In this document: positions 21,847-54,235 of the stretch, piece by piece
How positions within the stretch are numbered: the first letter of the stretch is position 1
How the letters are laid out: every line of letters begins with the position of its first letter
Origin: Pezizomycotina sp. ARF18
Taxonomy: Eukaryota > Ascomycota
Length of the DNA: 64,000 bases
Direction of reading: 5' to 3'
NCBI GenBank assembly: GCA_002224055.1
Contig: AZLU01000057.1
Location: 62,001 to 126,000, forward strand
Program-made: the position numbers and the translations under genes
Notes under the pieces: generated by a model
Told to the model about the DNA's origin: nothing
The model's database searches: none
What the model saw: only the letters and a program-made list of their open reading frames with translations

Positions 21847-23762
21847 TTATGCGACAGCGAACTTAGACCTGGCCCTCAGCTGCTTGCCGAAGAAGTAGAG
21901 CACATACATGCCTGTAACACCGATAGCAATACTACAGCCAGCCAACAAGCTGATGCCCGGCCCGACGCCCAAGTTCAAGTACAGCGGCCTGGCGAAGATG
22001 ACGGCTCCGCTCGCCAACGCGCTCCTGAAGAAGTCATTGCCCGCGAAAAGGCTGGCGGCGTACATCGGATAACTGAGCGGGAGATAGACGAAGATACACT
22101 GGAAGATGACGAAGCCCGAGGCACCATAGATGACAATACCAATGGTGGGACGATCCAGTGTATAGAGTGCCTAGCAGTCCACCCGAAGAGGAAAAGTCCG
22201 GCCGGAGGTCCAAAGACGGCAAAGAGAGCCGGGACGAGGCGGGACTCTTGCTCTCGGAGGCCGTTCTTGACGATGTCGCGCTCGAGGTAGAAGTAGTAGT
22301 ACGAGACGTAGATTGCGATACCGATGAGACAAGAGACGAGGATACACAGGAAGATAACGCCGATGGCACCGATGGAGAAGCCGTAGAAGCCGTTGTAGAC
22401 GATCGGGAAGGCTTCAAAGAAGGAATAGTAGATACCGTAGGTGAGGGCGGCATAGAGATTTGTGAACAAAACGGCGGGATCTTTGATCGTGATCTCGAGT
22501 GGCTTGATGATCGCGTCGGACATTACCTTTCCGATCTTCAGGTTGCCCTGGTCGATTTCAGATTGCGACCTGTACATCGGGTTTCCGGTCCTGGCACGCA
22601 GACGCTTAGCGCGGCGGAGAAGGATGTTGGCGGCGGAAGTCTCGGGGAGAAGGATGAACATGAGGATGAACGTAGGGCCGGCCATCCAAAGCATTTCCCA
22701 GAGCGACCAGCGCCAACCCTTTTCCATCACTGCGTAGCCCGAGAGAAGAGGACCGAGGCAGGGCCACAGTAGGCTGCGGAGACCCAAAGGGACAAGAGGT
22801 ATGGTAGCTTAAGTAGCGAGTACATATCTTGCATCGAAGCACCGCCGTCTACAGAAGAAATTTATTAGTAAGCTGAGATTTAGAAAAGGAGGAAGCATCG
22901 TCTATGAGCGGGAGGGACTTACTGGCTAAACAGGTAGATCCCCAGAATCCTTGGAGGAAACGAAGTACGAGTAACCGGCGAGGTTATCAACCAATGCAGT
23001 TGGCACACAGAGTATCGTGAAGATAGCGAACGTCGGTACGTAGGTGCGTTGCGCCCGATAACCGGAACTTCGCTAAGCGGGGCAAAGAAGAGCGGGCCGA
23101 TACCATCTGTATTCAATGCATTAGCGCCAACTTATCATCAAGGCAACGGTGCGAAGGAGATACTTACAAGCTAGAACGTAAAGCGACAAGCCCAAGGCAG
23201 CCTTAGGCGCCTTGACGTGGAATATCTCCATGACTTCTCCCTCGCTAGGCGTGTAAATTGCCGAACCGCAGTAGAATACAAATGTGAGTATTGATATAAT
23301 GATTGCGATCAGGAGCTTCTTGCCGCTGCTCCAGTTTTGTGGGTTTCGGGATCATCCGTGCTGTACCAGTCGACCAGGACAATACCATCTTTCGTCCTCT
23401 CGGGGGCTATGGGGCGGGATTTTGTCCTCTGGATTTCAAGTTGCTGTTCTTCTTCCAATCGCGCCTGGGAATATGGTGTGGTGTGCGTTCTTGTCAGGGT
23501 AATCGGCGGTGGCTCGATGCTTTCCGAGTGTCTGCGGGATGCCGCCGCTGATGCTTCAGGGTCTGTCTCTCTCTCCTTTTCGCCCGGGCCCGGGGAAGCG
23601 GCCCGTGGAGTTGCTGACTGAGAGAAGTGGATTGATTGCTAGCCTCTAAATACGCCGGCGGGCACTGCCAGTCGTCTCTTTCTTCAGGGTATTTGAGGTA
23701 CCGCTTGTTCGTTACAAGTCGATGATCTGGCCGAGCGTCGAGTCTCGGATTATATCGTGCAT
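21847..23762 (-). CDS. MFS drug/polyamine efflux transporter, DHA1 family
   Basis: A 12-helix proton antiporter of the FLR1/TPO1-like branch, expected in the plasma membrane exporting drugs or polyamines. ATG at 23762 opens a hydrophilic N-tail (MHDIIRDSTLGQIIDL); then VLVDWYSTDDPE and the first helix LLIAIIISILTFVFYCGSAI. The signature LSLYVLAYGIGPLFFAPLSE followed by VPVIGRN spans the 23107-23167 intron. A second intron is 22849-22922, before GGASMQDMYSLLKLPYL. GYAVMEKGWRWSLWEMLWMA and ETSAANILLRRAKRLRARTG are family hallmarks. The last helices end in KQLRARSKFAVA at TAA 21847-21849. About 580 residues, full length. Six frame changes occur, each one base lost from a short run (for example GAAAACCC read as GAAACCC). 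Substrate unknown. Confidence 0.85.
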
Positions 23763-28153: not shown

Positions 28154-29443
28154 TTACGGCAATTGTGTTCTTGAGACCGTGATGTTTGTGGTCTTCGTGA
28201 TGATACCGTCCTCTTTAACCATAGCTTCGATGCTCTCACTCGGGTTCCACACGTCCCGGCCCATGACGTTCGCCTCATATCCCTTACTACTTGTCGCTTG
28301 CATCTGCCATTCCTCCGTAGTCTTTTCTCCAGCAGCACTATGGTAGGCGCTTTCGAGCTCGTTGTACGTCGACAAGTCGTTTGCATCAACTTCCTCCTCT
28401 GACCGCTGCTGTTGCCGAACGAGCGTTCGCCACCAGAGTTTGCGGGAGATCGACCCGAAGAGCCTGCGTTGGACCTGATGGTTTCACCGAGGAGGTTGGA
28501 GAAGAGGGTTTCAGCGCGGGAAGCGAGGCACATAGGATTGCGACGGTATATTCGACGATGGACCAGAGACCGCAAGGAACTATGGGTTGACTATTAGATA
28601 TGTCCTTTAAAGGAAAAAAAGAGTTCGGAGACTTACCATTATCCCACGTGGGATCCTGGCTCTTGCCGGGAGCCTTGAGCGTCGTAAGGCGGAAGACTTC
28701 CGTGAGCACGACGAACAAACCCATAGCGAAGATCACCACGAGACCGAGTCTTTGCCTCTTGGGAATCTGGACGTTCCAGAGACTCCTGATAGGCAGGAAT
28801 AAATAACCAAATCGGAGAAAATGTTAAGCCCGGCGATGGATTCCCAAAAGGCGGACCTATTCATGCAATAACCACCCGGGATTGTCGAATCCCAAGCGAA
28901 CGTGACGGGTGTGCACTGGAAGATAGTTCCGAAATCCGTTGCAATCGTCATCGCGATGACAAATGCCAGCATTCCGTAGACCCACCACTTGAGGTTGCGA
29001 TCGATCTTAAGGATGAAGAGGAGGATGGAGACCTTGATGAGGCCGATGGAAGTGAAGTAGCCGAACTGTGCGACAATCAGCCAGCGTAGAGATACCATAG
29101 CGTCGTGAGCGGATTGAGGAGTCTGGGGAGGTCGTAGACGTGGGAACCGAAGCCAAGCGGGACCTCTGATAGATAGTGAGAGTTAGTAACAAGACGTGAA
29201 ATGAATACAAGATAAATCTTAACTTGGGCAAGTACATACGGAAGAGCAGAACAACGGAACAGATGCCGCCAGAGAACAGTGAAGCTAAGATAAACCAGTC
29301 GTCCCACCATATCTTGTTTATCCTATAACGCGCGTAAAACCGAAGGGCGACGACGATAGCCGCAACGAACGTGAAGATAGTGCACACCGAGATGATCACT
29401 GGATTCTCGTCTCCTTGTGGCTCATCACTTCTGACCAGGTCAT
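28154..29443 (-). CDS. Rhodopsin-like fungal integral membrane protein (seven-helix)
   Basis: Member of the large fungal family annotated as rhodopsin-domain or PTH11-related integral membrane proteins; these sit in the plasma membrane and ligands are mostly unknown. From ATG 29443: NPVIISVCTIFTFVAAIVVA, LRFYARYRINKIWWDDWFIL (the R-x-Y-x-R...W-D-D hallmark), an intron (29166-29239), VPLGFGSHVYDLP, GYFTSIGLIKVSILLFIL, QCTPVTFAWDSTIPGGYC, ESIAGLNIFSDLVIY, LGLVVIFAMGLFVVLTEVFR, a second intron (28580-28636), then VPCGLWSIVEYTVAILCASL with P-A-L-K-P. The C-tail is polar and Ser/Glu rich, ending TVSRTQLP. About 400 residues, normal. At least four single-base frame changes are visible, for example TTT read as TT before CCTGCCTATC. 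Confidence 0.82.
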
Positions 29444-32400
29444 GGTGGCTGGACTGTCGGACGAAGCTGCTAAAGCTTTTGTTGTTTGCTCTGGAAAGAG
29501 ATAAATGTTTACCAATAGCGAGATAGTGAGCTACAGCTGCGAAGCCAGTCGATCTCTAAAACAGAATAGCTTAGTGGGAGGAGCTTCATGTACAAGATCT
29601 GTATCTCGAGGGGCGGGTGGTTCGTAGTCTTATGTATGATTATTTGAATACGATGCGGATCCAGGAGCACAGACTGAAGCATAGCGGTAGTCCCAGAGGC
29701 TAGAGTTGACCGAGAGATATTTAGGAGATTTGCAGGGTTCCTAGACCTTTTTTTTATTTATCTTTTCTGCAAGCAGGCTAGAGATATGGGTGACCTCATC
29801 TTCCCGGGACCTTCCCAGTGTGAATACGTAAATAAATCAAGTAGAAACATTTATGTGATGTATCGTAACAAGAGCGATTCATGGGCTTGCAGGAAAAAGA
29901 AAAGATTACCCTGTAGAAAAACGTGGGTACGGAGCTAAGCAGGATGAAAAGATCCCTAAGTTGCAATGAAGAATAAAGCCCTGTCGGTGGAGCGGATACT
30001 TAGCAAGACTTCTCCGCCGCTCCAAGGATAATGTCCTTTGATATTGCTCTCCATCGTGCTTGGGATCATGAAACAACAACCGCCACTGATCCCAAACGGG
30101 GCAGAAAATGGAGACTGCCTAGAGCGAGACCAAGGATCGTCAAAGTCGTCCGCTCACTCTTGCATACTTAAGTACGCAAGAAACCTCCCACCAATCTGCT
30201 TTTTAATAGTCCTGAATTTGCAGTTTTCTCCATTACGAAATTTCCCTGCTGCATTAGCGTTGGGAGAAAACCGATGTACTTTCGTTGCTTTCACGATCTA
30301 ACTTGATATGCTCCACAATTGTAAATATAATCTGGATAACGAATGACCTTCTGCATCACAGGCGAGAAAAAAAAAAAGAAAAGAAAAGAAAAAAAAAAAA
30401 TCAGTGGTGGTTTGGGATCATGAAACTATTTGGATATTTCACTTCTCTGGACTCCACGTTGTTCCTTCTCGTGTTTTTCTTTGATTATCTCGTAGAATCC
30501 CCTGAATCTGGATTGCCGCTTCGATTTACATAATGAGACAAACAAATTACGAGTGAAAATCCTCCTATCGTATACACTCATCATCCTTTCGAGACTGTTT
30601 AATCCGATGGCCTTCCGCTTAGTGGGTATCTACAGATTATTGATGTCCTTCTATGTTAGCTATCGTGTTTACGAGTATTCCGCACGTTTACGAAGAATTC
30701 TGTCGAAGATGGTTGCGGAGGGTCTCAATGCACATAAACGTGTCAATCGCGACCCGATTCCTATCTGCGAAATTAAATCCCTCTTAGTATTACGCTTTAT
30801 GTTTCCCAGGAACACAAGAGCTTGAATTGTTCCTATTGCCGAGGTTGCTGATTTAAAAGATCGTTACTGTTGTGCCTAAGCGTGGAGTAACGTGCGTCGG
30901 GCAGTTATAACAAAATCCATTACATTTCGTTTTACATGCATGAATCTATTATCTCCACCAACCGTTTGGACAATTTACCCCGTTTATCATGGGCTATCAA
31001 AGCTGCCTCGATAATATCTCTTATTGTTAACAGATGAAGACTTCCTATTGAATGCGTTAACCTAATGAACAAGGATTCATATGGATATCGCGACGACACA
31101 TTTGAGCTCTGATACCTAATCGAATTATAATGCCGTATTATTTAATCCGAAGGTTCAAGAGAATTTGGCCGCTGGGAATGATCAGCCTTTTCGGCGAGTA
31201 AACAAACCTACGGCACGGCAGCTACGTGGTATTATAACCAGAAGTTCGTGTTCCCCCAGACCAAACGCTTAGATGAAACCTTCGACGAAAACATAAATTT
31301 TCAATGTCAAGGGGAAAGGTTTATGGATACGTACTAGACTATGGAATATACAGTGATGAGGTGCTTATGATTTTCAGTTTGGTAAAGCATCCATTTCCAT
31401 TGTACCGCTCTTTAGCGGACGAGTGGTGAATCATAACAAGAGGTGTGTGTTTAATATCCCAAGTGAAACTAAAACTCGCCGATTTCGGTTTTGACCGTCC
31501 AGATGAGAGGGCATTAACTGAGTATGACGGCTTACATTATGAGCTCAAGACACGTAACTATAGTTTTATCAATCCTTGAAAATTTTTACTATTGAAGAGC
31601 AAGTCTCTCTTAACTCTGTCATCTTGTTTATAATTCTACGAAACGCTTCTGGACTCTCCTACAAGCCCCAGCAAGCCTCAGTAGGCCCATGGCGTTGAAA
31701 ATGGCGTAAGAATGCCCCTCAGAGCGATCTTTCGACGACGGTATTGCCGAAGGAACCACCACTGCATGACACCTTATTATAAGTGTACCGTGCAATAGAA
31801 AAAAGCTTGAAGGATCCCGCAGAGGGGGAGGTGCATGTATCTTATTCTAGGCGAAGGAATGAGAAATAAGATCCAGAACAAAGATCCGTGCTAGGGTACT
31901 TGCTCTACTTAATTCTTGCTAAATCGCGGCGTGTGAAACATGTAAGCCATGAAACCTTAGTTAAATTTATAACGACGCGTGCCGAAATATTAGCCGGGGC
32001 CTCGCCCCGGCCAGGAATTTTTTTTTCTTTTTCGCAAGTTCCAAATGGCCTACTGCTTGGTTCTGGTTTCTCTCAAGTGAAGATGGACTACTATTTAGCC
32101 TATTCATTATCGATTATATATTGTTAGAGTATAATTGACATCGATATCCATTATATTACGTATTAATTACAATAATAATGAGATTTCGACTGGGATGTTT
32201 GAAAACCCTCCCCCTTACATGGAGGAGGATGTGAGCTCCGAAGACTGTATCTCGAGATACAAGAGACTATCCTGGCGAGGTTTAATGACTTTCAGTATGG
32301 TACAATCACTTTCGAGGGACTAATAAATATTAAATATACGACGGCTTCCAAAAGTTTTCTCAGTATCTAGATGATTATCCTGATTGCCTAACTGATTTTT

Positions 32401-34479: not shown

Positions 34480-37400
34480 ATGAGTTCGTCTGGGAGCACT
34501 TTTCCTGGTCGGGTAGGTGTCTCTCGGGATAAGGCATCTAATGATACCTCTGGATTATTAAGGAGCGACCCGGTCGAACCGCAGGTCCTATTACCCACGG
34601 TGTCGGAACATGATAGCGATTCTTCGGACGACGAAGACGCCACGAAAGGTGAACCGCCTTTTGGTTTGAATGGACCGGCGGACTTCACCGATAGCGATAG
34701 GGAGTCCGATTCGGATTCGACGGTCTCAGACAACGACAAGGCTGCGGCCTTCCACAGTGATGATTGTCCCGTTTTAATACCTCCTTATCTGAAGGCCTCT
34801 CTTGACGGCGCAGACGATGAACCCAGTTTGCCCCATAAGCCGACTGCCAAGGAACCTCCGAGGCCTAGCGCTAGTACAAAGGGTGCCCATATCAAACAGA
34901 TCGAGGCCGTTATCTCGTTTATTTTGCGTAAGTCTATACGAAAAGCGTTCCATGTTATGCCCTCCGATTAGAGATTCCATTTAGCTGACATGCTCGATAC
35001 TGTATTATAGGCACCGAGCAAGATATAGACATTGATTTTTCTGAGATACGCTTCCGAGGAGTTAAAAATCGCCTTCCTAAGCACAGGATCGTATATACTC
35101 TTGTCATCCCCATGAGCTTGTCGCACCCCGCACCCATCAGAGACAAGGATGCGACTCAATGGCCAACGTGCTACCTCACTATGCTACCTGGCTGGCTCAT
35201 CCAGCGAAGGGTTCGGGTTGCAGTGGAGCAGATAACAGGCAAAACACCGCCTCGTACGATTCGCTCACCCTCTCCCGAGGTCGTGAAAGATTCGATGAGG
35301 ATCTGGCCAGGGAAAAACGGGTCAATCGTATAGAGAAAGCCGTCTGGGAGATCCTTAGTAAGCTATATCATCTATCCGTCGATAGGCCTCCGTTTTGTAC
35401 ATTGTCTTCTTTTATTTCGTTGAGCTAACGTTGGAAATTTTGATGTATACAGGAAGGGAACACAGCATCCGTATCAGGGAGAGGGACGTCGAGGGCTCCT
35501 TTGGCGGATATAGTAATACAGTCAAACTGCCTGATGGCACCGCCATAGTCTACTCCTTCGACTTTTCCAAAGAGCGCAGACTGGCGCTTAGGGAGGAGCT
35601 GCGGCTCCTTCCGGCGAGTCAGTGGCCACCAAGTATTCTGACCCTGCTGCCGGCGCTGCTTGCGAGGGGAACCGTGGTGCTTGTCGTCGACACAGACGAC
35701 CTGATCAGCGACTCTGGAAACTCGGACTGGACGTAGACTCTGATGAATCAGATGAGGACGATTATGAAGGCTATCAGGAGTCAGAGGACGACTTTGACAC
35801 CTCAGATGCTGATTATTCTGAATCTGGCTCTAGCGCCAATGAGAACAGTAATGTCAGCACGAGCCGCAGGAAGAGAGTCATTAGCGGCACTGACTTCGGC
35901 ATCCTGCGCAACTTGTCGAAACTGATGGGAGAAGGAGTCATCAAGTTCATTTCGCCGGACACGCCGGCGAAGCTCGGACCCAGGCCATCAGCGTTGCCCA
36001 CAAAGAAGAGCCTTTATGGCTACGATGGTGCGAACGATACCGATGACGATACTATTGATGACAGAAGGGTTAAGGATCGTCGTAAGAAGAAAAGGCAACT
36101 GCGGTCTCCAATCCCTATGACTAAACCGGCGCCTGGGATGAATGGCGAATATGTTTGGATTGTATATACGGCGTGATCCTCCTATACCCATCTACAGGTT
36201 TGTTCAACCGACGGGGGCAATGACACACCGCCTAGCCGACATACTCGCGGCTCCAAGAAGGAGGAGTTCGGCTTGTTGCACGCACGCAATGAGAGCCGCG
36301 GTGGGACCCCAACGCCACACCACGCAGAAAGCCCAGGCCGCATCGTTATCCGCTCTCCTGATGGCAAAATTTCCGTTCTACCAACGGAGATAGATGACCA
36401 AGGGCGCTGCGTGCTGCAGCTCGGCGAAGGGCTTACTGTCCGAGGCCGAGGTCCCAACGTGAGAATACAGCGGGATCCTACTAGCAGGGGCTCGAGCAGC
36501 AGGGGCTCGAATAGCAGGGGCTCGAATAGCAGGGAAGTGTATTCAGTAACCCAGCCGATCGACCGAAACATGCGTAATCACCGCCGTCCTCACAAAGCCC
36601 AACTATCCCTTACCCGGGACCGCCTCGCGCCCTTCAGCAGGTCCAGGCTGCGGCTAGCAGGGCAATCAACGAAGCGAGTGCCACCGCCAACAGGATCATC
36701 AACCGAGCGATAGCTACTACTGAAAAGTTCACCGTCATGGCTACTATCGACGAAACGATCGCCGATATCGTGAAGACGAAGCACAAGCAATATACGATTA
36801 CTCCGAAGGATATCAGATTCCACGGTTGTCCTTCCATCCTGGTCCCTCGCTTGCGCATCGCCGTCAATCTTGACCTCCAAGGAATGGGTCCGGCCTTTAC
36901 TCACACAGCCCTTCCCCAGCACGCCATAGATTGGCCCCTCGATACCCTCAAGACACTTTCGAGGAAGCTGAAGGATGGCGCCGTCCGGGTTTCGGTGCAG
37001 CAGGAGCAAAAGGTGGTCGGCCCCAACGGCAACTCCATCGACCCGTCTCTCCTACGTTTCCAAACCGACGGCGCGGGCGATGGCTCCAGCGGTGATAAAC
37101 CTAAGGGCAAAGGAAAAGTAGCGTGGGGCGTCCAACTTGAGGTCTTTCCCGATAATAACGGCTCCACATCTTCTTCGTCGGGGGGATCACACCGCAGAAG
37201 TGGTAACGGTGCTGGCTCATCGCGACGCCACGGACATCCGCCCCCGTCGGCGCCGCAACCTCCCCCACTGACACCCGGCGACTCTGCTGGCATCCGGCAC
37301 GGAACTATCGGGCCGAACCTTCCCGTGCCGAGCCATTCGAAGAACCCCATTAGCGGTCTCGGTAGCAGCGGCAGCGGGAGCAAAAACACGATCAGTACTA

Positions 37401-40400
37401 TAGCACCGTCGGATTCAGTCAGCCAGATCGGCAGCTCGGCGCGCGGCAGCCACCTTGGCACCGGGACACGACCAGGCACTGGTAGCGGGGGCCAGATCCC
37501 TCGGCCCGGTACTGCCGGAGTCGGATCTATCCCAAGGCCTGGAACCGGCAGCCACCGCAGAAGTGGTCTTAGCGGAGCGGTCTCCCCGGCAGTGGTAGTG
37601 GCGGACAACAGAAACCGAGACCGCCTTACGTATCGTCCGGAAGTTCTATATCGAGCGGCAGTAGCGGCGGTATCGGCGGCAGCCGCCGTCCAGGTTCAGG
37701 CCGAGATACACTTCGTCCCGGCACAAGTCACGGTACTGGTAGTGGACACAGGAAGGGAACAGGCGATAGTTCGGGACGGCCACCTCTAGTTTTGAGGCCT
37801 GCTGGTGAGGACGGTACCAGAACCAGCGGGCGACCGAATTCCGGCCCCGGAGGATCCAGCGGCTCAACTGATTACGGCAGCAAAGGACACGGCTCTCACA
37901 GAGTGGGCATCCCTGCCTTGAACCCCGCGGCAGCGGTTCTAAGAAACCAACGGTTCCCGGCCTTTACCCCAGCGGCAGCGGCGCGCGCCCTAGTTTTTCC
38001 GGCCGCGCCGGCACCGGTGGCAGTTATAAGAGCCCCGGAGGTCGTTCTGACGGTCTGGGTTCAGTAAGAGCCGGAGCGGAAGTTCGCCTGCGGTTGCCGA
38101 CCACGATCCCAACGACCCCTGGCGCTCGCGCTACGGTACCCCGAGCACAAAGCCGCCCTTAACGCCCTCGAGTGGAAATCGCAAAAGTCCTCGGCAAGAA
38201 GCTCAACACGACCTTCGACCATACCAAGGTTATCTTCGCCGGGCCGAAGAAGATCCTCGTCTGGGGCAGCGGTATCCGCGCTCGCCTCAACTTAGGAAAA
38301 GAGGTCAATCTCACCCGTGAGTCGAGGTACTGGACCATTGAGGAGATCGACAACCTGCGGAAGCAACTCGAGAAAGGGCAGGCGGATATTCACGTTGAGA
38401 AAGATAGGAAGTACAGGACCCTGGACTCAAACACGTCGAGTAGGAAGTCCGGCTTGCCGACGAGTTCTTACCCGCTGTTTGACAAGGATCATGGATGGAG
38501 CTATCCAGGGCATGGTAACCCACTAGGACAGGGCTCGAGCGGGAGAAGAGGCTCGAGCGCGCAGAAAGGGCGGAGTGGAGGCTTAGGAGGCGGACCTTTC
38601 GGAAGTAGGTCTTTAAAGAGCCCGGGTGCGCCCGGAAGCTCTGGGGGATCATCGGGAACCGGCTCTTCAATACGGACGCCCAACCTAATGACCCCTATGA
38701 ACGTACCAGGTGGCTCTAGGAACTCCAGAGGAACTGGTGGAGTAGGAGGCGGTGGATCAGGTGGAACGGGACGTAGTGGAGGGACAGGAGGAGGAAGCAG
38801 TGGTGGCGGCGGTGGCGGTGGTGGAAGGTCTGGTGGAACGGGACGATCCGGAGGAAGTAGTGGACGCGATGGAAAGAGTAGCTCTAGCGCCCACCGAAGT
38901 ACCTGGGGTCAAACGATCAGCAAGTCTGACACCAGGTACCGGGACGATAAAGCAGAACGCAAGGCGCTTTCCGACAAGATTGACGAAGCGGTCGCGAAGA
39001 TTCTTGCCCGACGCGGCATCACGCCGAATTACAACCCGTGGGCGTGACGTGGTTCGGAGGCCCCGGCGTTATGGTCACGGGCCCGACTATGATGTATTTC
39101 CCTCTCGGGATCGTCGCCGGGTCCAACATGGGCGCCTGGAACTGGCAAGGGAGGGAGTTACCGAGCGATTGGTCGTGCTGGAACTGCCAGATGTTGCGGG
39201 AACTGCAGAGGGCATTCATGGATGGGAGAGCAGGCGTGAAGGCGCCGGATGGCAGGTGGCTCACCATGCCTCCTACAGATCCGAGAGGAGGCAACGACGG
39301 GGCATTAGTCCCACATAGGGGAGCCGGTTTGGGTGGCTTTGGTTTCGACGGCGCAGACGACCGCGACGACGTTCAGGAGACGGCGACCGTCCGGGACGAA
39401 GCCAATTCCGACTCCGCCATCGATATCCCCAGCCCAGACGGTTCACCTGACTGCAAAAATGAATCAACCCGTAAGTTCTCTCATGTATCTCATCGATTGT
39501 AGTCTAGAAATATTTTTAAAATAGAAATATAAATTGATAATTATTATCGTTCAAATATAATGCCCTTCCATCACTAACATGTACGTTATAACCGGTTTAG
39601 TACCCAGGTGGATGGTCCTGGTGATACTGGAAGTAGTTCTGGCCGCGGCGGGCGCGAGTGGCAGCGCAGGTGGCTCCCTGCGCACAAAGACTCCATCGAG
39701 AAAGCCCTCACGGAATCCGAATCTCTAATCACGACGATCCTCTTCAGGAAGCACGGGATACAAGCCGGAGCCGAGGATATCCGTCTGCGCGGCATACAAA
39801 CCCACGAGTCCCGATTAGGCTTTAGCTACGAGCTGGTGTTCGAGAAGTCAAAGTTCGAGAGGATGCTGGACGAATGCGAGTGCAGCGAAGATTTCCTGTG
39901 GAGAACGGATGTTACCGCCTGGCCGATTGGCATCATTCAGGAACTACCCAAGCTGCTTAAGGACGGCCGTGTAACGTTGAAAGTCAGCCTGGACCGGAAT
40001 TATGCCCCTCGCGATAAGGACGTGGACTGGCCACCAGCGAGGTTCGACGGCGCCGACGAGGAAGACGGTCTCACTCCGCAGCAGCGCGAAAAGGAAGGCA
40101 AAGCGAAGTATATCGAAGAGTGCAAGTCCATAATCACTTCCATCCTCCTGTGGAAACACGGCTACTGGTTTGAAGCGAGCGAAGTTCCCTTCGACGGAAT
40201 GGTCACGATACTGGCGCATGTTGGCATCAAATACCACCTGGAGTTCGGAACCTACGCGCAGCTTTACGCGAACGACTATGGCTGCGACAACGATTTCATG
40301 GAGAGCAACCAGGTCACCGCTTGGCCGCTATGGGTAGTGAAAGAACTACCGGGGTGGCTGCTGCGGGAGTACGTCGCAATCAGGGTGGAAGAGGATCCAA

Positions 40401-41400
40401 ATTGGGAGCCCAGCGATGCGCTTCCTTTCATGGCAGGGACGATAGCCCAGACAGTCAAGGCAGCAAGCACATGAAAGAGCTCTTGTTCCTTGAAGCCCAG
40501 ATGTCCGCTGACGACCCGATCGTCACGTCTACACCCGAACTCGACACCGGTATCGCCAGATGATACGACATTCTACACTACGATCCACTCGTGGACCCTT
40601 CTGGCAATGTCACCGACGAACGCTGGATATCCGCGAAGAGCCACTTCGATTCTGACTCAAACCTCGAAGACGTGCTTCCGGAGGAGACCTTGCTTCCAAT
40701 TGGCAAGAGCAACAGTGAAACCAAAGCCCGCAGCGAAGCTGTCCTGAAGCTACAAGATAAGGTCTCTCAGCTGGAGATTGAACTGGAACACATCCAAAAG
40801 GAGTTACACGCATCGACCCTAACGATCGCCGAAAGCGAGCGCGTCATCCGGGGACTCCGCGTACAACTCAAAGAGGCTTCAGCCGAGAATGGAAACCAAA
40901 GCAATGCTACTACGGGCAGTCGCGGGACATATAATTGGCCCCACGACGTGAATAACCCTGAGCCCAGCGCCGACGACGACAGCTCATATCCGCCAGACCT
41001 ATCGGGCATCGACCTCTCGATGATCGAGCAGTTCACGGCCGCGTTCCACATTCAAGAAACGGAAATTGCATCTCTTAAGGAAAAGCTGGCCGATCAGGAC
41101 GGGGAACTCTCCTACCTCCTCTCCAAGATTGTCGAACAGGACGTGCAGATTTCCGCCAAGGACGAGAGCATACGCAGCCTCAGAACCAAGTGGCAGAGTT
41201 TGGTCAATGCTCACACCGTTCAAAAAAAGGAGATAGCGACGTTGAAGGCGAAACTGGCGCAGAGTCACAAGGGTAGAGAGATGGACCGTGATACCATTCA
41301 CGAGCAGCTTATGGACCTGGTCAAGGATATCCACGGAATTGACGAGGGCTTGGACGGATACTACACATTGGCAAGCAGGGTAGAGGATGATTCAGATTGA
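34480..41400 (+). CDS. Giant multi-repeat protein with seven or more copies of an unrecognised 95-residue domain and a C-terminal coiled coil
   Basis: I do not recognise the family. From ATG 34480 the order is: an acidic Ser/Asp-rich N-tail (DSDSSDDEDATKGEPP); repeats 1 and 2; an acidic linker (about 35724-35850); a basic, Arg/Ser-rich segment; repeat 4; a long Gly/Ser/Pro linker (37080-38100); repeat 5; a Gly-rich linker (38520-38890); repeats 6, 7 and 8; and a coiled coil (40720-41330, with LQDKVSQLEIELEHIQKEL) ending SRVEDDSD at TGA 41398-41400. Three introns are clear: 34928-35010, 35358-35452 and 39471-39600. There is no signal peptide or membrane span, so an intracellular structural or scaffold role is likely but inferred. 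Several frame changes occur, and one in-frame TGA at 40561-40563 could instead mark the end of one gene and start of another. Total about 2,200 residues if single. Confidence 0.65.
34890..35240 (+). repeat. W-P domain copy 1
   Basis: Interrupted by the intron 34928-35010. Reads KQIEAVISFIL, then DIDIDFSEIRFRGVKNRLP, HRIVYTLVIPM, and the core QWPTCYLTMLPGWLIQRRVR followed by VAVEQ. Confidence 0.7.
35321..35703 (+). repeat. W-P domain copy 2
   Basis: Interrupted by the intron 35358-35452. Reads RIEKAVWEIL, IRIRERDVEGSFGGYS, AIVYSFDFSKERR, and the core QWPPSILTLLPALLARGTVV followed by LVVDTDDL. Confidence 0.72.
35880..35985 (+). repeat. Possible partial W-P domain (copy 3, C-terminal half only)
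   Basis: After the acidic linker, GTDFGILRNLSKLMGEGVIK then FISPDTPAK has the spacing of the L-x-x-L-x-x-L-x-x-G-x-V-x-F end of the domain, but lacks the Trp and the N-terminal half. Confidence 0.35.
36483..36537 (+). repeat. 15-base tandem repeat, about 3.5 copies
   Basis: Unit AGCAGGGGCTCGAAT repeated in frame, encoding Ser-Arg-Gly-Ser-Asn/Ser units in a disordered linker of the giant protein. Confidence 0.85.
36743..37020 (+). repeat. W-P domain copy 4
   Basis: Reads TIDETIADIVKTKHKQYTIT, PKDIRFHGCPSIL, RLRIAVNLDLQG, and the core DWPLDTLKTLSRKLKDGAVR followed by VSVQQEQKV. Confidence 0.72.
38168..38413 (+). repeat. W-P domain copy 5 (Trp-Thr variant)
   Basis: Reads VEIAKVLGKKLNTTFDHTKV, IFAGPKKILVWGSGIRARLN, and the core YWTIEEIDNLRKQLEKGQAD followed by IHVEKDRKY. 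The Pro of the W-P motif is Thr here. Confidence 0.65.
38976..39262 (+). repeat. W-P domain copy 6 (Trp-Ser variant)
   Basis: Reads KIDEAVAKILARRGITPNYN, then in a shifted frame VTGPTMMYFPLGIVAG and the core DWSCWNCQMLRELQRAFMDG followed by RAGVKAPDGRWL. Most diverged full copy. Confidence 0.55.
39697..40004 (+). repeat. W-P domain copy 7
   Basis: Reads SESLITTILFRKHGIQAGAE, DIRLRGIQTHESRLGFSYEL, and the core AWPIGIIQELPKLLKDGRVT followed by LKVSLDRNY. Closest to copy 8. Confidence 0.75.
40107..40407 (+). repeat. W-P domain copy 8
   Basis: Reads ECKSIITSILLWKHGYWFEA, EVPFDGMVTILAHVGIKYHL, and the core AWPLWVVKELPGWLLREYVA followed by IRVEEDPNW. With copy 7 it forms the best-matched pair, suggesting the most recent duplication. 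Confidence 0.75.
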
Positions 41401-41752
41401 TCCGGTCTTTTGGCCGATAAGGAGATGAAGTATAGCGCGCAATGCTGGTCATGTAATTTTATACACGAGATTGGAACTGGTTTGCATCCGACATGCCTGG
41501 TTGGTGTCCGTTTACTCGCGTTTTTGTTTTGTTTTTCTATTTCTGCGGATATTCTGTAAGGGGCCAGAACGGCGGCTTGATCCATGACATCACAACTTGT
41601 TCTTGGTCAAAACCTTCAACATGTTAGTTAGTTTTAATAAATCTTGACTCAGGTAGTTAGATAGTTAATTCAAAGCAATCTCGGTCAAAGACAATCCATT
41701 AGTACAAAGCTTCCATGGGAAGAAATTCATAGGTTACATCCGAGTCTTCAGG

Positions 41753-42335
41753 ATGCCTCGACGGTCTGCTCGGCTCGGAGGATCAACATCCTCCGCGTTC
41801 ACTCTGAGTCCATTGCGCTCAAAATCCTCCCAGGCAAATCTCCACCGCCGCGGTCTAAGACCGAAGCGAACCCCGATCCCTCTACTAGATTCCCTCCCCT
41901 TCCATCGATTACAAGCTAAATCCACAACTCTACGAGTATCCCGCGGCGAAACCTGCGTCCTGACATGCGAACCCTATAAATCACATCCTCCCGCACTGGC
42001 GGTTCCGCACGCCGTCCGTAGCGCGAACGAGCGCTGAAAAGCTACAAAGAGATCTACGAAGACTACAAGAAGGACGGGGATTTCGTTGGTATGGACATGA
42101 CGAGGAAGTTCATACAGATGGGATACACGCGCGCGATGCGATACACGAACCATAAAGGAGGGGGAAATACGACGAGAAGCGTCATGTTAAACCTAGGGAA
42201 CATGTTGATAAGGGCATGTTGGAGAAGAAGGAAGCCGCGGAGATATTTAAAAAGACACGGAGGGCCGTTATTGACGGAGATGAGGTGTATAAGAAGATGA
42301 AGAGGAATAGCAGGAGAATTACAAGTAGACTATAA
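41753..42335 (+). CDS. DUF4385 family protein
   Basis: ATG 41753 gives MPRRSARLGGSTSSAFTLSP, a basic nuclear-looking N-tail. The conserved domain follows: LRVSRGETCVLTCEPYKSH, then HWRFRTPSVARTSAE, YKEIYEDYKKDG, DFVGMDMTRKFIQMGYTRAM and RYTNHKGGGKYDE-like sequence. The C-end is EAAEIFKKTRRAVIDGDEVY with KKMKRN, closing RITSRL at TAA 42333-42335. This is the conserved domain known as DUF4385, found in bacteria and fungi; no biochemical role is established as far as I know. About 190 residues, normal for the family. At least three frame changes, each one missing base. Confidence 0.72.
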
Positions 42336-45922: not shown

Positions 45923-47303
45923 ATGACTCGGCTCATTCTTCTAGCTTTGCTCCTACAACTCTTGGCATCGCTTCCGACCACCTCGGGGTTCCCTCCCGAC
46001 TCGGGGATTGGCTTGTTTGAGAGACTCGAATGCAAAAGCTGGGGGTATTTTGCTCTGGAACCAAGAGTGCTGCTCTACGATCTGCGCTGGATCTTCGTGT
46101 ACGTGCATCGCGACGGGTGATACGAACGTGGCGTGTACCCAGAACTCAGACTGCTGCAGCGGCAACTGTAACGGAGGAAGCAGATGTGTCTGCTCAAACG
46201 TAGGGTCCGGAATCTGCGGTAGCGATGGCGACTGTTGCGGAGGTACCGCTTTCTGCGAGTCTGGGTCGTGCTCCAACTGCTATAACATTGATGAACAGTG
46301 CTATCAAGACCGCGTTATGCTGCTCGAAACACTGTCTAATGAACAGCACCGACACTGGGGATTGGCACTGCTGCATAGGGGATGGAGACACGGCTGTTCA
46401 AAGAGTGAAGACTGCTGCTGGGCAGGTTCTTTCTGCGACGCTGGTAAATGCGTCGGATGCCTTCCGCTTCTTTCGGGGACGCCGTGTGTCAACCAGGGAG
46501 ATTGCTGCTCAGGCGGCTGTTTTCGATTCGGTTTGTAAACTGATAGGTAAGCCTGTTTAATAATTATTATATTCTTTACGTCTTACTTTTTCTAATATTA
46601 AACTTATTTATTAATTAGGTAACGATTCCCCGATCGCCTGCCACTACAACTCCGACTGTTTGTCCAACAACTGCGGTGGGAGGCCCCGTCTCGGGAACGT
46701 GTAAGGCCACCTGCCACGACATCGGAGGAAACTGCACGGTTACAGCCGACTGTTGCACAGATGTCACCACAACGACGTGCTCCTCGGGTAAGTGCTACGT
46801 TGCGAACACTTACTCGTGTAATGGAGACGGCGACTGCGCCCCACCCGGCCATTGCGACAACCAGAAAAATGCGCTGCCTGCATCGGGAATGGTAACTCGA
46901 CGGGGTGCAAAGACAACAGTTGGTGCTGTGCCGGAAACTGGTGCAACGGAGGTCCCTCGGGGCTATGTCAAACATGTATAGTAAGGATTAGAGACGCCCT
47001 TCCCTGCCATTTGATTCTTTGTGGGCTCGAACTAACATAACATATAACGTGACGTAGCCCAACGGACAAGCCTGTTTTACAAGCTCCATGTGCTGCTCGT
47101 TAACCTGCGGCGGGAATCTGCCAGGGTCACCAAATGAGAACTGTTGCCTACCTGTAGGGCAAACCTGTGGAAGCAACGCCGACTGCTGCTCGTTCAATTG
47201 CGAAGCGAGTCAGTGTGCGGCGCCTCTCTCCACGACGGCTGGCTCGGATGCTCCTTCGGGAACTTCGTCAGCTCCGCGTGTTGGCGGTACGCACCCTTGT
47301 TAA
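45923..47303 (+). CDS. Secreted cysteine-rich multi-module protein B
   Basis: ATG 45923 gives a clean signal peptide (MTRLILLALLLQLLASLPTT). At least ten cysteine modules follow, for example SDCCSGNCNGGSRCVC, GDCCGGTAFCESGSCSNC, EDCCWAGSFCDAGKCVGC, ADCCTDVTTTTCSSGKC, SMCCSLTC and ADCCSFNCEASQC. Two introns are clear: 46547-46618 and 46981-47057 (ACTAAC branch). The C-terminus is Ser/Thr-rich and ends VGGTHPC at TAA 47301-47303. About 420 residues. The modules share a six-cysteine plan with a C-C doublet, compatible with a knotted disulfide fold. Likely extracellular; whether wall-bound or released is unknown. Several frame changes lie in the locus. Transcribed away from gene A. Confidence 0.65.
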
Positions 47304-49932: not shown

Positions 49933-52900
49933 GTTATAAGCCCGGTTAGTAATATATCTTAATAAACGTATAGACTTACTTCTTAATCTCTCTAAACGAT
50001 ATATCTTACGATATCTCTCTTACTAAAGTTTAACGAGGTAAAGCTAAAGGCTAATCTTATAAACTACCTCGATTAGAGTACCTATATAATTACGTTCCTT
50101 AAGTATAATAAAGTCTAGGATATTACTAATAAACCGCTTAAGGCTACGATAGCCGATATAGAGCTAAGTACTAATAATTAAGATAACGACTTAAAGGCGT
50201 ATACCATTATTAAAGCTTACTATAAGATAAAGACTCGACAGGCTTATTTATAATTTACTAATAGTAGCGCGAATAAGGTATAGAATACCTTAAGTTCGGT
50301 ATATATCGCTATTACCGCTATTAGTAAACCTTATATTAAAAAGTAGCTAATATAATTTAACTTAAGAATAAAGTTAATATTTAAGGATTTATATAGAAGT
50401 ATCGAGATCTTATTAAACGTATAATAAGATATTAGGCTCGATCTTAACGGAAAATACCGAGGCGGAGAAGGCGGAGAAGACAGAGCTAGGTATAGGCTTA
50501 AAGGATAATATAGCTATAGTAAAGGCTATTAATCTCGTCTATAGTAACCTTAGTAGCGACTAGGAGACATTTATTATAAACTTTTAATAAATAATAGATT
50601 TAATAGTAAAGAACCGACCCTTAATATACTCGAGAAGACGCTACTCGTTAAAAGGTAAAGCGTAGAATACGATATACCGGAGACGTTAGCTCTAAAGATA
50701 ATAAGGCGCTATTTAAAGGAATAGCTAAAGTAAAACCTAAAGGAACGATAAGAAGGTTTATAAGTTTAAGGGTAAATACTACTACTACGATAAGGTCGGA
50801 TATAAGAGGGCCGACTATAAGAAGCGTATAAAGGATAAAAAGGATAGCGGTAATAACGGGTATTAGGCCTAATAATATAACCTTAGTACGAGATACCGGC
50901 TCTTAGAGAATAATCTAGTAGTTCCTTAACTTAGGCGTATTTCTTATATAACGATAGTAAGAGAAGTATTCTCTACTTATAAACCCTCTTAAAGCTAAAG
51001 AATATTATAATTAATAATAAAAAAATATTATAGGCTATTAATACTTAGCTTAATATTTATAAGGCTTAGTAAGAAGTACGGTAGTAGTCTTATTAAACTT
51101 AAGAATACGCTATATACTCTAAAGATAAAGTATAGCCTATTTTCGATCTCTCGCGTAGATAAGATAGGATATATAATAACGATCTAATAAGGTAGATATA
51201 TAATAACTAGATCGGGGCTAAGAATTAAAGCTACTATAAAATTAGAACTATAGAAGATCTTAGGTAAGATCGTAATATCTATAAAAAAGAGTTTAGCTCT
51301 TACTACTATATAAAAATATATAAACGGCTTAAATATATCGGTAAGAATTATATTAAGCGAATAATTAAGTATAAAAACGTTATTAGTATTACTAAAGACG
51401 GTAAAAATCTTTAGAGCTATATTAACTACGAAGCCTACGGACTTACTAAATTAAAATAACTCTAAACTATAAAAAACCCCGTTTAGATAAGTATAAGCTA
51501 ATAGAGATAATCTTTTTAGATTTTTATAATAAGCGTATATAAAGAGCCTTAGAGATTATATAGGTTTATTACCTTCCTTAAAGGGAATAGTTAGAAGTCC
51601 TAGATCTACTTTATAAAAGATAAAAAAGTAGAGACGATACTCTTATATTTTAATAGTACTTTTAAGATAGCTAAACGTTAGTTAAACCTTAAGCTTATTA
51701 AGCTATAATACGATAAAGATAAAGAATATACCTTAATCGATAGACTTATAACGAAGTAGGGATTATAGTCTATATTTTAGCTATATACATATCTTAATAG
51801 AATAGCGTACCTAAGAAGCTTAATTAATTTTTATTAATAGATTAAAGGTAATATTAGCCGCGTTAGAATTACTACTATAGCTATAGGTAGAGGCGGTAAA
51901 TTATTATAATTTAATCTATAACTATACGCTATTAAGGCTATTTAAGGTATTAAAGAATAGTAAATAGACGATATCGTAAGGAAGATAAGAAGATAGAACT
52001 CCTAATATCTTAAACTTTAGAATATTTAGTAAACTATATTACGTATATATCGATAGTAAACTTTAGAAGAAGCTAGATAATACTACTAAGAAGATATATT
52101 TTATAGGCCTAGAGGCTTATAATATCTACCGAGTCTAGGATTCTATTATCCATAAAGTATTAATCCGTAGAGATATTAGATTCCTAATTAAATCGACCTT
52201 TAAAGTACGTAACTTTATAGAGGATAATAAAGATCTTTTCGAGTATATTAAAATACCTTAGAATAGGTTTAGTCTAAGGATAAAATAGCAACGGCGCTAG
52301 ATTACGATTAAAACTTAATTTCTAATCGTTAATTAAATATCTACGAGACGATTACGCTAGAGTAGCCTAATTAGCTAGATTATAAAGATAAGAGTAAAGA
52401 TCTCGATAACACTAGCCTATAACTAAGATCTAAGAATACTCGCTCTCGTAGAGGAAGTTACATAGATACTATAAGATAGATTTATAATAATTAACTAAAG
52501 GTATTAGGCGTATTCCTAGAATCGCTAAAGATAAGATCTAGTAGTCAAACTACGAAGATACCCTATAGGCTAGGATACGTTAATAAAGATCTAATAGCTA
52601 TACGCCTTAAAGAGAAGGCCTATAAAAGATTAATAATATATATCGATAAACTAGAGCTACTTACCTATAAAGAGGCTATAAGCTCTATAAACTATAAAGG
52701 ATAGTATATATCGATAGATTAAGAACTATCTTTAATTAAAGAATAAGACGTATAAAAACTTATAGATTCTCGAGATCTTCTTCCGGAAGATAATATCGTT
52801 AATAGTAAATAGGTATTTAAGTATAAGCGCAATACTATTAGTTAGATTATAATACTTAAGTTAAGACTAGTTACTTAAGGTTTTATATAAAAGTAAGGGA

Positions 52901-54235
52901 TCGATTACGACGAGATATATATACTAATAGCTAAGATATTAATAGTAAAACTATTTTTTATATTAGTAGCCTAGCTTAATCTCGAATATAAGTAGATAGA
53001 TATAATAACGGCCTTCCTCATATCTAAACTAAAGTAAAGAATTATCGTTAAGCCTCTAAAAGGGAGTAGAATTAATAGATTAGTTTAGTTAATAAAGACT
53101 CTATATAGCCTTAAATAGTTACCTCGAAAATAGTACGGAGAACTTACCTTAATTTTTAAATTACTAAATTTAAAGTTTATCGGCTCGATAATAGCTTATT
53201 TATTAGTAAAGATCGTCGGCTAATAATAATTATCTACGTTAATAATCTATTAATAGCTAGATCTAATAAATATAAAGTCGAGATACTTAAGCGAGATCTT
53301 AGTTTATACTTTAAGATAAAGGATATAGGGCCGGTAGCCTATTTCTTAGTATATAGGTAGAATAGACTAGGTCTAGAGATTAACGTTACCTAGTATTATA
53401 TTAGTCTATATATATATGATCGCTTCTTAAGAGATTTAGGCTTAAGGATACTCCGAGATTAGTACTCCTATAAAAAGGAGAGGTATCCTTAAACGGAGGA
53501 TTAGGATACTATACCGGTAGTATAGTATCGATAAATAGTAGGAAGTTTAATCTATACTCTATTTATTAGGCTAACTAATACCTTCGCTATCTCGACGCTA
53601 GGATAATACGTTAGCGAAGTAAACCGAACTTACGAAAGGTAGTAAGAAGAGTACTACGATATTAAAAATCTCTTGATCGTGCGCTTACGTACTATGCCCG
53701 TAAGATAGAGGATAAGATACTAAATCTACGTATCTACGTAGACGCTAATTAGGCCGGATATAAGCTTATTTATAGATCTACTACCGGCTACGTAATAACG
53801 TTTAACGGAATAGCTATCTTATACTATTTAAAGAAATAACGTATTATAGCTACTAGTAGTACTAAGGTAGAATATATAGCTATAGAGAAGGCTTTACGGG
53901 AAGCTCTCTAGGTACTTTAAATATTAAAGGATATATAGCGAGCCTTTAAGTTTAAGGCTCCTAATAGTATCGAGATATATATAGATAATTAAAGTACTAT
54001 TAGTATTATGAAGAATCCTAAATACTATAGTAGAACTAAGTATATTAATATATAATATTATTTTATAAGGGAATTAGTTTAAGAAGGAACTATCGAGCCT
54101 TAATATATAAGATTAGAGGATAATATCGCGGATATGCTTACTAAACCGCTTATAAAGATATCTTATAATAGCGCTATAAAGGCTATAGGTATGAGAAATA
54201 GAATAAAGATTACTAGTATTATCGATAAGGGGAGA

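Follow-up and report, generated by a model that had tools for sequence, protein, structure and literature searches.

Does the forward-strand locus at 34480..41400 encode a single giant protein built from a repeated domain, and does that domain belong to a known family? The locus lies in a stretch of 64,000 nucleotides, which we call the window. The limits originally predicted for the gene hold, with an ATG at 34480 and a TGA stop codon at 41398-41400. The reading that we prefer, with a probability of about 0.5, is that the locus codes for a single intracellular protein, roughly 2100-2200 residues long and recovered in pieces from ATG to stop, that this protein is a multivalent scaffold or tether with a C-terminal coiled coil, and that the frame changes interrupting it are assembly errors.

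Fifteen matches to the HET domain were found, and an AT-rich tract at 50000-54000 (GC 0.29-0.30) has RIP-type indices of 1.61 for TA/AT and 0.05 for (CA+TG)/(AC+GT). HET domains together with RIP mark filamentous ascomycetes (Pezizomycotina), and the DNA fits an origin in this group. The RIP-type signature is absent from the repeat locus (TA/AT 0.77, (CA+TG)/(AC+GT) 1.04). The downstream neighbour at 41669-42297 (+) is a DUF4385 protein in two frames, of which the piece at 42022-42297 matches with an E-value of 3.8e-19 and the preceding piece weakly, with 0.014. At 21978-22808 (-) there is a partial major facilitator superfamily transporter (MFS_1, E 8.4e-10). A weak match to a fungal rhodopsin domain at 29010-29555 (-) is below the cut-off (E 0.0022). 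Another weak match, of 15 residues, to a spider peptide family at 45945-46535 (+) reaches 18.3 bits against a cut-off of 21 (E 0.0022) and is probably due to chance.

Repeat copies, shared introns and linkers

Seven copies of about 95 residues and a possible further half-copy had been proposed. Six of the copies are well supported, the seventh is degenerate, and the half-copy is not established. Each of the six was searched for with a hidden Markov model built from the other five, against 1599 ORFs of the window, taken from stop to stop and no shorter than 25 residues. All copies are on the forward strand. Copy 1 at 34894..35240 (34894-34927 and 35011-35240) was recovered with an E-value of 2.2e-10, copy 2 at 35327..35703 (35327-35357 and 35453-35703) with 7.6e-5, copy 4 at 36728..37030 with 2e-9, and copy 5 at 38169..38432 with 4.8e-4 (1.9e-3 when only the domain is scored). 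Over the six runs, the best-scoring ORF from elsewhere in the window had an E-value of 0.25. Because copy 7 (39689..40021) and copy 8 (40100..40420) share one ORF, this test cannot separate them, and they were compared directly instead; they are 34% identical (E 1.8e-12). Among the other five aligned copies, identity to copy 7 ranges from 18 to 32%. When 104 codons of copy 7 are set against those of copy 8, the identity is 0.51 at first, 0.63 at second and 0.36 at third positions, a pattern that fits selection on the protein residues.

The degenerate copy 6 lies at 38964..39259 with a frame change near 39040, and its two parts, which were chosen by eye, were equalled by 12 of 2000 and 1 of 2000 shuffles. 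The possible half-copy at 35829..36002 (+) consists of the core only; 78 of 2000 shuffles did equally well, and in the leave-one-out search of the window ORFs it is missing from the matches listed up to an E-value of 10. The W-P/T cores, the helix before the core and the strands of the original prediction were all confirmed in the copies. The mean hydrophobic moments of the six copies suggest a helix at alignment columns 0-9, strands at 12-24 and 30-45, a second helix at 63-71, where the W-P...L-P core lies, and a final strand at 75-82. The repeat unit is thus probably arranged as helix-strand-strand-helix-strand, as a rough estimate from these moments.

Copies 1 and 2 are each interrupted by a phase 1 intron, at 34928..35010 and 35358..35452 (+), respectively. 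Both donors lie within the Arg codon that follows the Ile-Leu of the first helix. Since a second in-frame acceptor is possible for copy 1 at 35028, the donor position is the firmly common feature. The common donor position and phase point to duplication of one exon-intron unit, and this evidence is independent of the profiles. Judged by these sequence comparisons, the locus carries a genuine, diverged, intragenic domain repeat.

Acidic and Gly/Ser-rich linkers had been described between the copies, and the composition bears this out. Copies 4 and 5 are separated by a Gly/Ser/Pro-rich linker at 37067..38168 (+), recognised from its frames and composition, in which four frame changes occur, and copies 5 and 6 by a linker at 38433..38963 (+), whose sequence is Gly/Ser-rich. 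The motif D-G-A-[D/N/G] recurs in the linkers, as DGAD at 34804..34815, DGAN at 36024..36035, DGAG at 37067..37078, and DGAD again at 39347..39358 and 40046..40057 (all +). These five occurrences compare with 0.24 expected in the translated pieces, which total 2125 residues with the copy 2 exon left out, and none of 3000 shuffles reached five, a statistic that overstates the strength because the motif was picked after looking. Between the half-copy and copy 4, a short stretch at 36330-36480 (+) has alternating hydrophobic residues and looks folded. The only match of its ORF is to DUF3203 (E 0.0062 for 36177-36713), which is among the strongest Pfam matches below the cut-off at the locus.

Relation of the repeat to known families

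The claim that the unit is unrecognised by Pfam was upheld. Nothing exceeded the curated cut-off in ten pieces of the locus, in two further pieces or in the six copies. Among PDB sequences there was no convincing match, the best having an E-value of 0.88 for the stretch of copies 7-8 and 0.91 for the profile. No match was obtained in NCBIfam, and the single match in PHROGs had an E-value of 0.14. The wider claim that the pattern belongs to no described family is supported only within the reach of these searches. With respect to these four libraries, the locus as read from its letters is a domain repeat without a registered family, in a frame-broken assembly.

No relative of the repeat was found in the bacterial, archaeal and viral collections, which says little because these collections are not fungal. 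When the same genome was queried with copies 1, 2, 4, 5 and 8, with the stretch of copies 7-8 and with the coiled-coil part, nothing was found outside the locus; this is weak evidence because the query with copy 4 missed even its sister copies. Genome-wide, a search with a DNA pattern of the core yielded 150 hits and one with its reversed control 160, so the pattern is not enriched; copies 1, 2, 7 and 8 are among the hits listed. A profile scan of 30 of these 150 pattern loci, all outside this locus, gave a best E-value of 0.47, and the 10 kb flanks on both sides of the window gave a best profile E-value of 7.1.

It is about equally plausible that the unit is, or is not, a strongly diverged version of some known small alpha/beta fold, too distant for sequence profiles to detect. 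If it is, both the repeat and the putative scaffold role may still hold. A profile made from six sequences reaches little, and helix-strand-strand-helix-strand orders exist in known folds. On the other hand, the best Pfam match among the six copies had an E-value of 0.06 and came from one copy only, and the best PDB match of the profile was no better than the 0.91 given above. It is unlikely that the unit represents a domain family with a fold of its own that arose within a fungal lineage and multiplied inside a single gene, giving a scaffold of seven domains that ends in a coiled coil and has an acidic motif recurring in its linkers. The locus is not yet evidence for a new fold or mechanism. 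If the domain is truly outside known families, it would be a lineage-specific module whose internal duplication can be traced through the common intron.

Reading frame and gene extent

After splicing, the locus does not give a single open frame. Piece-by-piece reading and an intron scan left about nine changes of frame that no plausible intron explains (all but one of the nine go in the same direction) and two in-frame stop codons, near 36174 and 40561. An intron at 39471..39600 (+), with a GTAAGT donor, a branch-like site and an acceptor at 39600 or 39607, joins the exon of copy 6 to that of copies 7-8; the frame is lost with both acceptors listed. Long open stretches of 298, 294 and 403 residues are present; when the bases of the 298-residue one were shuffled, the frame stayed open in 0 of 5000 trials. 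Because of the missing single frame, the frame changes and the two stops, it is only likely, and not certain, that the locus encodes one giant protein, presumably from a single transcript.

The stops near 36174 and 40561 are possible split points between two or three adjoining genes, each with some of the copies, and over 36174 the intron scan listed no intron with a branch-like site. We consider such a division doubtful. The stretches between the copies are open and linker-like in composition, the intron from 39471 connects copies 6 and 7, and past 40561 the same frame runs on without a near start codon. One giant protein is thus preferred to separate genes.

The cause of the frame changes was judged from control genes of the same genome, which were picked by Pfam match: the gene for RNA polymerase subunit 2, which we take to be RPB2, and two CCT chaperonin genes, presumably CCT2 and CCT7. 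In the RNA polymerase gene a count by eye gives at least six frame changes over roughly 1 kb, and in both chaperonin genes the frame is broken inside contiguous coding sequence. The frame-broken sites of essential genes in the assembly are L025 1411-2500, L010 about 1750 and L008 about 1900-2000. A chaperonin junction on C20, which was ambiguous, and the RNA polymerase gene on C15, which looks frame-broken though the stretch inspected is not decisive, were left out of this count. Because a living fungus needs these genes and yet they too are broken, the assembly must contain many small errors, and therefore broken frames cannot prove gene decay anywhere in the window. Assembly errors are most likely the cause of the frame changes at the repeat locus and explain them better than gene decay does. 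That the locus is a decaying pseudogene, a formerly functional repeat protein in which frameshifts and stops have accumulated, is suggested by the nine or so frame changes and two stops in the sequence as given, and is unlikely, since the RNA polymerase and chaperonin genes are broken alike and the three long stretches have stayed open. The repeated domain is recognisable across this frame-broken assembly, in which automatic gene prediction would probably yield a set of fragments with no apparent relation to each other.

Putative scaffold role and comparison with known systems

The C-terminal part at 40564..41397 (+) had been predicted to form a coiled coil, and two tests of this prediction disagree. 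The best heptad stretch of 28 residues, at about 40723-40806, was reached by 2 of 300 shuffles, whereas a Fourier test was equalled by 57 of 1000 and 355 of 1000 shuffles. The weak Pfam matches of this part are to many coiled-coil families. A C-terminal coiled coil is probable. In hydropathy windows of 19 residues, no membrane-like stretch was found in the termini and linkers. The only window above 2 is in copy 2, where a value of 2.05 spans the core helix and strand; the region of copy 6 has a window of 1.25, and the last 278 residues do not exceed 0.65.

A multivalent scaffold or tether usually consists of diverged domains on flexible linkers, with an end that oligomerises. The locus reads as several related domains which, given the frame changes, are probably rather than certainly in one chain, as such an anatomy implies. 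The scaffold role fits because the linkers are of low complexity, the termini and linkers have no membrane-like stretch and the coiled coil is probable; we put the odds for the role itself at about even. This may imply the following scheme: Repeated internal duplication would have produced the six well-supported copies and the degenerate one, with copies 1 and 2 keeping their common intron. Given how far the copies have diverged, each may present its own version of one binding surface. The flexible acidic and Gly/Ser-rich linkers with their DGA[D/N/G] motifs would hold the domains apart, and the coiled coil would probably make the protein an oligomer. The product would be a multivalent scaffold or tether that collects several partners.

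The C-terminal part finds its best Pfam match in the ATG16-type coiled coil (PF08614). With an E-value of 3.2e-4 this is the strongest Pfam match below the cut-off, but its score of 21.4 bits falls short of the cut-off (33.7), and many other coiled-coil families match weakly too. Multidomain scaffold proteins in general resemble the putative protein in having several related domains on flexible linkers, and differ from it in that the repeated domain here matches no library searched. Leashins (Lah) of filamentous ascomycetes are very large proteins that are regarded as tethers (PMC5345055). Lah is about 500 kDa in size and has a membrane-spanning region within its C-terminal 288 residues (PMC5345055). 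Membership among the leashins fails on this feature, since the C-terminal 278 residues encoded here peak at a hydropathy of 0.65. As a very large fungal protein and putative tether, Lah is the nearest fungal comparison in function for the protein that this locus probably encodes.
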